Assembly (NCBI GenBank): GCA_029007845.1
Contig: JAQXIP010000087.1
Span: forward strand, 1 to 42,778
Source of the DNA: Clostridiales bacterium
GTDB lineage: Bacteria > Bacillota > Clostridia > Lachnospirales > Lachnospiraceae
Direction of reading: 5' to 3'
Length of the DNA stretch: 42,778 nucleotides
Under the pieces are notes generated by a model. It was given only the letters and a program-made list of their open reading frames with translations, was not told where the DNA came from and made no database searches. The translations under genes were made by a program, and so were the position numbers. Shown piece after piece: positions 40,292 through 42,778 of this stretch (positions are counted from its first letter, which is position 1; every line of letters begins with the position of its first letter).

Positions 40292-40353
40292 ATCTACATG
40301 AAAAAATACAAAAATCTACATGAACGGTTTTTGCGCAAGAAACGTAGTATAAT
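40292..40353 (+). promoter_or_regulatory. LytTR-type direct repeat promoter, site 1
   Basis: ATCTACAT occurs at 40292-40299 and 40314-40321, 22 bases apart (two helical turns), each inside an AAAAATCTACATGAA context. A TATAAT -10 lies at 40348-40353, 26 bases after the second repeat, with no good -35. It drives the small gene at 40439. The same layout occurs at 42396-42457. Confidence 0.75.
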
Positions 40354-40438
40354 GACAAGGTGCGGAGCAATCCGTAGGTATCATGGGGCAAAATACCGTT
40401 TGACCCCAACATCCTATTTTTCAAAAAAGGAGGATCTG

Positions 40439-40660
40439 TTGTATTCAGTGAGTTGGAATAATTGCTATAAAAAATTTGAGGACAAACTGAAAGCGTTTGT
40501 CCGGGAATTTGGAATCATCGTGGCTGTCACAAAAAGCAGGAATCCCTATGATTATTTTAATTGTATCACCGGGAAACCAAAGAGAAGGCGGCCGCTTGTT
40601 GAAAGAATCAAAGCAATATTGAAAAAGAACGACAAAAATACAGATGACCCGGAGTATTAG
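40439..40660 (+). CDS. Small basic protein of the LytTR locus
   Basis: 73 residues if translation starts at TTG 40439, five bases after AAGGAGG (40427-40433); no in-frame ATG lies near a ribosome site. The sequence is soluble and basic, with a central VREFGIIVAVTKSRNPYDYF and a Lys/Arg-rich end. There is no signal peptide, double-Gly leader or clear membrane helix, so a bacteriocin or autoinducer precursor is not supported. The last codons form the 5' arm of a strong terminator. It is controlled by LytTR site 1. I do not recognise the family. Confidence 0.55.
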   Translation: MYSVSWNNCYKKFEDKLKAFVREFGIIVAVTKSRNPYDYFNCITGKPKRRRPLVERIKAILKKNDKNTDDPEY

Positions 40661-40677
40661 GGCATCTGTATTTTTGT
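40632..40677. terminator. Bidirectional terminator
   Basis: ACAAAAATACAGATG (40632-40646) pairs perfectly over 15 bases with CATCTGTATTTTTGT (40663-40677), with an inner CCC/GGG. T tracts occur on both strands, so it can end the small gene and the LytTR operon. Confidence 0.88.
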
Positions 40678-40679
40678 GT

Positions 40680-40739
40680 AATGTTGCAATGACCCACAAG
40701 GCAAAGCTGCTGGTTATGGATGAGCCCGCAGTTGGATTT
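40680..40739 (+). pseudogene. ABC transporter ATPase remnant (Walker B fragment)
   Basis: The plus strand reads NVAMTHKAKLLVMDEPAVGF, about 20 codons that match the Walker B region of ABC ATPases (hydrophobic stretch, DEP, then a turn). There is no Walker A or signature motif on either side, and a non-homologous sequence follows. It appears to be the debris of a transporter gene deleted between the terminator and the LytTR gene. Confidence 0.6.
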
Positions 40740-40743
40740 CACA

Positions 40744-41457
40744 CTAGCTTTTCCACTTTTTGGCAACATACGCATCTACAAGTTTGCGCCGGTCTCTTGC
40801 AATATCCAGGATCACTCCATTTTGCATCATAATCTTTTGGCGGCGGAGTTCTCTTATGTAACGGGTGTTTATCAGGTGTCCATAGCTGATGCGGAGAAAA
40901 TATTCCGTTTGCTGGCCAAGGGATGCTTCCAGGTCATCTAATTTCCCGTAATAGACGAGTGTCGGACTGTCGATTGTAAAAATTTTGATTTTGCGGTTTT
41001 CATTTTCAAAATAGAGTACATTTCTTAAATCAATCTGATAATGGTTCCGGTTAAAAGAAAAACAAAAATACCGGTTTGGGGCATGATATGACCAGACACG
41101 CCAGAAAATGGTGTCAAACCGTTCTTTCTTGATCGGCTTTGTAAGAAATCCAAAGGGACGTACATCGAAAGCTTGTTCCATATTTTGCTGATGACTGCTG
41201 ACAAAAATGATAGCAGTCAGTGGATAGGTGGCAATGATTCTTTGAGCAGTGTCAATTCCGTTTGTAATACCAAGTAAAACATCCAGGTAGATCAGATCAA
41301 AAGGCCGGCCGTTTTCCACATAAAAAATGAGATCTTCTGCGGTGTGGAAGACATGGGTCTTGAATTGAATATGTTTTTTATGGGAAATCTCCCATAAAAA
41401 GGATTCAATTGTAGTGGTAATATCCGGGTCATCATCACAAACCGCAATGCTGTACAT
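40744..41457 (-). CDS. LytTR-family response regulator (AgrA-like)
   Basis: 237 residues. Receiver: acidic VCDDDPD at residues 7-12, phospho-acceptor Asp59 in IYLDVLLG, Lys in FGFLTKPI. The LytTR DNA-binding domain follows from about 130 (RNVLYFENENRKIKIFT, FLRISYGHLINTRYIREL). LytTR proteins bind pairs of direct repeats about two turns apart, just like those at 40292 and 42396. AAAGGAG precedes ATG 41457. No histidine kinase is encoded nearby, so the signal input is unknown. It is downstream of, and probably cotranscribed with, the XRE gene. Confidence 0.93.
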   Translation of the reverse strand: MYSIAVCDDDPDITTTIESFLWEISHKKHIQFKTHVFHTAEDLIFYVENGRPFDLIYLDVLLGITNGIDTAQRIIATYPLTAIIFVSSHQQNMEQAFDVRPFGFLTKPIKKERFDTIFWRVWSYHAPNRYFCFSFNRNHYQIDLRNVLYFENENRKIKIFTIDSPTLVYYGKLDDLEASLGQQTEYFLRISYGHLINTRYIRELRRQKIMMQNGVILDIARDRRKLVDAYVAKKWKS

Positions 41458-41471
41458 AAAAAACTCCTTTT

Positions 41472-42197
41472 TTAGCTGTTTCGTTGCGAGGCAGCCAGTA
41501 TAGCAAATTGATAAGATTCTAAAATATAAGTTGCCTCGGTGTCTGGGATTAGATCCAAGGCTGTGTCGAAATATTGTGTATGAAGTAAATCTCCGTTAAG
41601 CAGATAATCAACCGGATACCCGAAGATTTCTTCAACGGTGCAGAGTGTCTTAAAACTTGGGATTTTTGTATACTCTTCAATTTGTGCATAGTGATTGCGG
41701 CCGATATGAAGCTTTTGTGCCATCTGTGATTTGGTCAGATGGTTAAGTTCCCGTTCATAGCGGAGAATCCGGCCGGTAATTGGAGCCTGGAGCGGATAGG
41801 AGAGAGGAATATTTGTACCGTATATTTTTTGAAACATACAGTATGGCATGTCATCTTTTGGCGAAGCAGAATTGAATTCATGATAACGGTCAAAGTCAAT
41901 GAGCTGGTAGAGAAGACGCAGCAGGCGAAGCTGCTCATTTGGGGGAAAATCGGAGATCAAAGGGCTTATTCTGCTTGGTGAAACAGTTTGCGGCTTCCCT
42001 GATATGATATAATGGATATCCCAGTGAAGCACCTGTTCGAGAATGTCCAGATAATCTTTTTGAAGGTATGCCTTACCCTGCTCAATTTTGCTATATGTCT
42101 CTATGGAGATATTCAATAGATCTGCCAGATCTTCTCGTTTTAGTCCCGCATCCCGGCGCATCCTAAATAAGCGATGGCCAATTAAAGAATTTCTCAT
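41472..42197 (-). CDS. Regulator with two XRE-type helix-turn-helix domains
   Basis: 241 residues. The first HTH covers about residues 7-62 (FRMRRDAGLKREDLADLLNI, SIETYSKIEQGKAYL). The second covers about 127-183 (ERELNHLTKSQMAQKLHIGR, NHYAQIEEYTKIPSF). The middle and end look helical, with no enzyme motif. It is 14 bases upstream of the LytTR gene. It could set the level of the LytTR regulator, or sense a peptide as some XRE proteins do; there is no direct evidence for either. Confidence 0.85.
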   Translation of the reverse strand: MRNSLIGHRLFRMRRDAGLKREDLADLLNISIETYSKIEQGKAYLQKDYLDILEQVLHWDIHYIISGKPQTVSPSRISPLISDFPPNEQLRLLRLLYQLIDFDRYHEFNSASPKDDMPYCMFQKIYGTNIPLSYPLQAPITGRILRYERELNHLTKSQMAQKLHIGRNHYAQIEEYTKIPSFKTLCTVEEIFGYPVDYLLNGDLLHTQYFDTALDLIPDTEATYILESYQFAILAASQRNS

Positions 42198-42395
42198 AAT
42201 GGTGTGTTTCTCCTCTCAATCCCACATCGCATCGTATGTGATAGCAGTCTTCTTATGAATGACACGTGTGAAGTCTGTCTTATAAAAATTCTAGCAACAC
42301 TGTATTTTATTTGCGATGTATGAAACAGAACGTTTCTGGTAAAATGCACCAAAAATTACATATTTTTCCTCAAGAAAAGAAGAGAAAATGTAAAA

Positions 42396-42457
42396 ATCGA
42401 CATGGTAGAATACAATAATCGACATAAACGGTTATAGAGAAAAAATAATGGTATACT
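42396..42457 (+). promoter_or_regulatory. LytTR-type direct repeat promoter, site 2
   Basis: ATCGACAT occurs at 42396-42403 and 42418-42425, again 22 bases apart, with TATACT (42452-42457) 26 bases later, the same two spacings as site 1. The transcript would run rightward. It meets only tiny frames (for example from GTG 42501, 15 codons), a hairpin TCTGGCACTG/CAGTGCCAGA (42556-42583), then repeat copy D. The rest of 42198-42395 is A/T-rich with no gene and presumably holds the promoter for the XRE gene. Confidence 0.72.
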
Positions 42458-42616
42458 TAGTTATGCTGGAGATTCAAATAAAATCAGGGTGAGGGAGGAA
42501 GTGTATATCTTTAATAAGTGTTTTCTTAAAAAGTCCAAGGAAAATTAGTATTGTTTCTGGCACTGCATTACCCCAGTGCCAGATCCAGCGCCCGATCCTC
42601 AACAACCACACAATCA

Positions 42617-42778
42617 GTAACAGTTCAGCCGTAACGAGCGCACAGCCGGAGAAAGCATGCAGAATATCAGGTATCATGAAATACCCGCTTTCGCTCCGTT
42701 GAACACGTAGCGGTACTAAGGTTTTGCAAAAAACGCAAAACCAAGTGCCGACGTGTTCAAAGGGATAATTCATGATAC
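42617..42778. repeat. Dispersed long palindrome, copy D (cut by the window end)
   Basis: It starts GTAACAGTTCAGCCGTAACG and passes through CATGAAATACCCGCTTTCGC, the shared core (GGTACTAAGGTTTTGC, AAGTGCCGACGTGTTC) and into the right arm ATTCATGATAC at the window edge, which pairs with GTATCATGAAAT in the left arm. A 99-residue minus-strand frame across it is a product of the repeat. Confidence 0.88.

Follow-up and report, generated by a model that had tools for sequence, protein, structure and literature searches.

The right end of the contig analysed here most probably holds a reduced agr-type locus, whose LytTR regulator would activate the two promoters that flank it; we put the probability of this reading at about 0.68. 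The window is the entire contig C87, 42,778 nucleotides long, from a MAG of 2.28 Mb in 115 contigs that is 88% complete. The 22-bp geometry of the two promoters is a class property of LytTR promoters and not special in itself. The unusual part is the reduction of the locus: a double helix-turn-helix (HTH) XRE gene and an AgrA-like LytTR gene stand together without kinase, AgrB or recognisable AgrD on the contig, and would have a 73-aa basic protein as output.

Twin promoters around an XRE-LytTR pair

The features of the locus, in positions of the window, are as follows.

40292-40299 and 40314-40321, plus strand: site 1 repeat pair ATCTACAT, period 22, aligned with agr-locus promoters of relatives
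40323-40329, plus strand: AACGGTT directly after the second site 1 repeat, at the expected -35 position
40348-40353, plus strand: site 1 -10 box, TATAAT
40439-40660, plus strand: ORF for a 73-aa basic protein, with TTG start, AGGAGG ribosome-binding site upstream and pI ~9.7
40640-40676, unstranded: hairpin and T-run, ACAGATG...CATCTGTATTTTT, a probable terminator separating the 73-aa ORF from the LytTR gene
40744-41457, minus strand: AgrA-type response regulator with receiver and LytTR domains (Response_reg 4.5e-13, LytTR 5.8e-10)
41472-42197, minus strand: XRE regulator whose two HTH domains span about 6-65 and 143-202; a gap of 14 bp separates it from the LytTR gene downstream
42326-42338, unstranded: inverted repeat CAGAA-CGT-TTCTG in the divergent intergenic region
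42352-42361, plus strand: extra half-site AAAATTACAT, which fits the family-wide box and precedes the first repeat of site 2 by 42 bp
42396-42403 and 42418-42425, plus strand: site 2 repeat pair ATCGACAT, period 22
42427-42433, plus strand: AACGGTT, common to both sites
42452-42457, plus strand: site 2 -10 box, TATACT
42617-42778, unstranded: partial copy of a palindromic interspersed repeat (~218 bp at full length, at least 40 copies in the MAG)

Site 1 (40292-40353) and site 2 (42396-42457) are each built from 8-bp repeats with 26 bases between the second repeat and the -10 box. The XRE-LytTR pair lies on the minus strand between the two promoters, both of which point right; its operon is convergent with the site 1 promoter and divergent from the site 2 promoter. 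The initial annotation had given the repeat coordinates, the 22-base period, the 26-base distance and these orientations, all of which proved exact. The identical twin geometry to which it drew attention is likewise real at both sites, and is to be expected for this class of regulator.

The two sites share AAAAATC.ACATG...AATACAA.AATC.ACAT.AACGGTT, which includes AATACAA in the stretch separating the repeats and AACGGTT behind the second one. By direct reading, no TTGACA-like hexamer is found in the -35 region of either site; AACGGTT lies there instead, and the hexamer 17 bp upstream of the site 1 -10 box is CGGTTT. This fits activator-dependent promoters.

Ungapped comparison of site 1 with site 2 gives 50 identities over 71 positions, against 35 at the next-best place for site 1 in the window and 40/71 for the best score in ~0.8 Mb of other DNA. 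In a pattern search across the 2.28-Mb MAG, exact ATCNACAT-14-ATCNACAT occurred at two places only, which are sites 1 and 2, within 2.1 kb; simple arithmetic puts the chance expectation in the MAG at ~0.02. The loose form ACAT-22-ACAT-26-TAYAMT also matched these two sites only, and its reversed control had two matches as well, so that loose geometry alone is not significant. In other species the exact promoter had two matches, both in unrelated organisms and with about two expected by chance, and none were found in viral contigs.

The LytTR protein of the window is 29-37% identical to those of related genomes and 31-37% identical to its nearest relatives, and its tree position is not well supported. 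Among XRE proteins of agr loci, the most similar one (G101) is also a double-HTH protein and is 25% identical to that of the window. No homologues of the XRE protein were found at E 1e-20 in 299 family genomes, nor any in the genome contig collection or in viral contigs; the viral contigs also gave no LytTR homologues. To the left of the pair are genes that we take, from their protein sequences, to be ilv and ser biosynthesis genes, and the XRE-LytTR pair would thus be a small chromosomal islet.

The same layout at LytTR and agr loci of relatives

The surroundings of LytTR genes in related genomes were scanned for repeat pairs followed by a -10 box. The layout that recurs there, in many of these genomes, is AAAA[AT]TTACAT twice, with a period of 21-22 and TATAAT 26-28 bp on, and in its strict form it gave 6 matches in 17 loci, against a mean of 0.03 per dinucleotide-shuffle set. 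Alignment of the window's boxes with those of the relatives shows an AAAA..TTACATG core, in which AC in both repeats and the -10 box are invariant; one or two bases separate the window core ATCKACAT from the TTACAT of the relatives.

At four loci (L083, L087, L090 and L099) an AgrD-like peptide lies just downstream of the box, with AgrC/LytTR genes alongside; AgrB follows the peptide at L083, L090 and L099, and the peptides of L083 and L090 are TIGR04223 AgrD. More generally, a promoter of this type in relatives commonly starts agrD within about 200 bp, and the kinase usually comes after LytTR in the same operon. The assignment of the repeats to LytTR, predicted at first from family knowledge, thereby gains strong comparative support. 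XRE genes adjoin LytTR in the agr loci L083, L084, L031 and L099, and no XRE gene was found at the box loci L081, L082, L087 and L090.

The nearest counterparts of the twin layout are both in genome G075, where, as with site 2, one box promoter diverges from a LytTR gene (L138), and two others stand in tandem and point away from a LytTR-kinase pair (L081). These tandem and divergent promoters, with period-22 boxes and near-identical layout, make an agr-type locus the closest parallel to the window. L081 differs from the window in having a kinase after LytTR, and the outputs of L081 and L138 are small membrane or peptide ORFs. Below the box promoter of L138 (341-529) is a 62-aa ORF like the last quarter of AgrB, with E 0.0044 against PF04647, under the curated cut-off; together with L081, this looks as if the agr loci of G075 were also cut down.

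The MAG has an agr locus of its own on contig C39 (L100, 12953, minus strand), whose promoter has the same layout with different repeats, CGTTCATGAC. Its period is 21, TATAAT follows after 27 bp, and an AgrD-like ORF of 46 aa and AgrB lie downstream. Since the layout is kept and the repeats differ, separate LytTR regulators within one genome may use separate box sequences. As a further observation, near-identical duplicated LytTR-kinase cassettes ~7.5 kb apart occur in two different genera (L085 in G318 and L086 in G025), suggesting recent transfer.

Together, the promoters of the window and the related loci give a usable family consensus for agr-type LytTR promoters, AAAAxTTACATG with a period of 21-22 and a -10 box 26-28 bp on. 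We regard this family-wide box as the most useful product of the analysis. Beyond the staphylococci and streptococci, tests of such boxes are to our knowledge few, and in gut-type bacteria the consensus could locate autoinducer and peptide genes overlooked by family models.

Outputs of the two promoters and the end of the contig

The basic 73-aa ORF described in the initial annotation was confirmed. It has no Pfam or NCBIfam match and none to TIGR04223 (AgrD); a search of 397 family genomes gave only weak matches at chance level, and plasmids gave none. A C...P...P pattern noticed by eye raised the protein as an AgrD candidate, which we rejected, its AgrD profile score being no better than that of shuffles. 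The hairpin at 40640-40676 was passed over by a simple terminator scanner because of its long loop. The fold of 40640-40690 has -15.4 kcal/mol (z -2.7), and the hairpin is probably an intrinsic terminator, usable in both directions. Because an ORF with a good ribosome-binding site is followed by hairpin and T-run, the site 1 product is likely a monocistronic mRNA of ~320 bases with the 73-aa protein as sole product. The promoter design is ordinary for its class; here it would drive a small basic protein and not a signal peptide.

Site 2 had been described as giving an apparently gene-free transcript, a claim that finds no support in the contig. The contig ends at 42778, 321 bp past the site 2 -10 box and inside the multicopy repeat that begins at 42617, and such repeats are places where assemblies break; a gene-free transcript is therefore indistinguishable from an assembly break. 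In the 160 bp ahead of the repeat, nothing was seen but a hairpin and a frame of 15 codons. No AgrD-like ORF was found within these 160 bp, and Rfam gave no match at site 2 or to the partial repeat copy. A minus-strand ORF at 42474-42773 lies mostly within the repeat and has no family match. Homology between the transcripts of the two sites downstream of their promoters, which the brief resemblance of their starts (MYSVSWNNCYKK and MYIFNKCFLKK) had suggested, was rejected, scoring no better than shuffles.

The palindromic repeat has a second copy on the same contig at 16798-17012. Its ~218 bp run between the ends GTAACAGTTCAGCCGTAACG and CGTTACGGCTGAACTGTTAC, with the core GAACACGTAGCGGTACTAAGGTTTTGC-loop-GCAAAACCAAGTGCCGACGTGTTC. 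The core recurs at the end of contig C30 with flanks that are different yet self-complementary, so that the flanks seem to vary in sequence and still preserve their pairing.

The orphan status given to the regulator pair by the initial annotation stands for the contig: no AgrC-type GHKL kinase, AgrB peptidase gene or recognisable AgrD was found on C87, which is cut at the right end of the locus. It reaches no further than the contig, given the incomplete MAG, the break after site 2, and a kinase on C30 and three AgrB genes elsewhere. In total, the MAG has 9 LytTR genes, 15 matches to the GHKL kinase model and 3 AgrB genes. The kinase of C30 (L160, 3795-4700, minus strand) is a GHKL/SPOB_a-type sensor kinase of ~301 aa, AgrC-like and with no LytTR gene on that 6.1-kb contig, and is a possible partner for an orphan regulator.

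These features also bear on an alternative in which a complete agr system was cut by the assembly, site 2 driving agrD/agrB/agrC or another real operon past the end of the contig, and the regulator would be no orphan. The stop of the contig shortly after site 2, the habit of such promoters in relatives of starting agrD, the MAG being only 88% complete and the unpaired kinase on the 6-kb C30 all speak for it. Against it, the place after LytTR where relatives usually have the kinase is taken here by the probable terminator and the 73-aa gene, and an AgrD-like ORF is missing from the 160 bp ahead of the repeat. We consider this alternative rather unlikely, yet it is the most serious rival. Somewhat less probable still is that the pair is a stand-alone XRE-LytTR switch derived from agr by loss of kinase and peptide, which controls only its two flanking promoters and makes through them a novel, small, basic protein and an output that is either a peptide or non-coding.

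Reading of the repeats and likeness to known systems

LytTR is the best-supported candidate binder of both sites. Within the MAG the exact repeat pair is unique to this locus, which makes the adjacent LytTR the simplest cognate regulator; the nine LytTR genes of the MAG count against this preference, and another of them could be the binder. Binding by the double-HTH XRE protein through tandem DNA-binding modules, with LytTR acting elsewhere, is improbable. XRE is first in the operon, and two HTH domains could contact repeats two helix turns apart. However, the repeats are present at four loci where no XRE gene was found, which argues that LytTR and not XRE reads the box; a 21-22 bp spacing of direct repeats is what published work gives as the signature of LytTR (PMC6193735); and the separate inverted repeat at 42326-42338 is of a type more usual for XRE operators. 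That inverted repeat, with 1 match in the window and 0.09 expected, is speculatively a candidate operator for XRE. Finally, it is very unlikely that the repeats arose by chance, or by recent duplication of a promoter, and play no part in regulation: the loose pattern is indeed matched as often by its reversed control, but the identity between the sites, the confinement of the exact pattern to 2.1 kb and the same layout at LytTR loci of other genera all oppose it, and duplication could account for the likeness of site 1 to site 2, not for that to other genera.

Returning to the reduced agr-type locus, we infer a course of events from binding and activation to terminator function, signal input, XRE role and output. 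XRE and the AgrA-like LytTR would be co-transcribed leftward, and the LytTR protein would bind both 22-bp-spaced repeats of each promoter, probably as a subunit pair on one helix face. Bound LytTR would then activate RNA polymerase at promoters with a good -10 box and no -35. From site 1 would come the short mRNA that encodes the 73-aa basic protein alone and stops at the hairpin terminator; the site 2 promoter, which diverges from the operon, would yield a transcript with its gene located past the contig end. Phosphorylation may come from a kinase encoded elsewhere, or LytTR may act through its own level. Tuning of the operon is the probable role of the XRE protein, perhaps via the CAGAA-CGT-TTCTG palindrome. 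If the locus is truly reduced, it would illustrate how an agr regulator can be put to new use in a local switch.

In published LytTR promoters the direct repeats are 9 bp long, with 11-13 bp between them, and lie shortly before the -35 (PMC6193735); the two direct repeats to which AgrA binds are located upstream of P2 and P3 (PMC4227749). In the window the repeats also lie closely ahead of a promoter, their period of 22 falls within the 21-23 bp of such boxes, and their sequence fits related LytTR loci. With agr, both at P2/P3 of S. aureus and at agrCDB-like loci of the same family, it shares the regulator with receiver and LytTR domains and the pair of direct repeats that immediately precedes the promoter with a spacing of 21-22 bp; with the same-family loci it further shares the repeat sequence and the distance to the -10 box, and an XRE gene is sometimes present in their operons. 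It differs from agr in the AgrC kinase, AgrB and an AgrD under the box promoter, none of which is recognisable on C87, in its outputs (the 73-aa basic protein and one unseen), and in an operon that runs towards one promoter and away from the other.

LRS systems (HdrRM, BrsRM; PMC6193735) resemble the window in a LytTR regulator without neighbouring kinase, direct repeats upstream of promoters and possible local feedback; their regulators lack a receiver and are paired with a membrane inhibitor, whereas the window has a receiver and no adjacent membrane protein. The neighbour of its LytTR is instead the soluble XRE protein, which sets the locus outside LRS. Elsewhere in the MAG, on contig C22, a LytTR gene adjoins a membrane protein, presumably DUF3021-like from a reading of its sequence, in an arrangement more LRS-like than that of the window.
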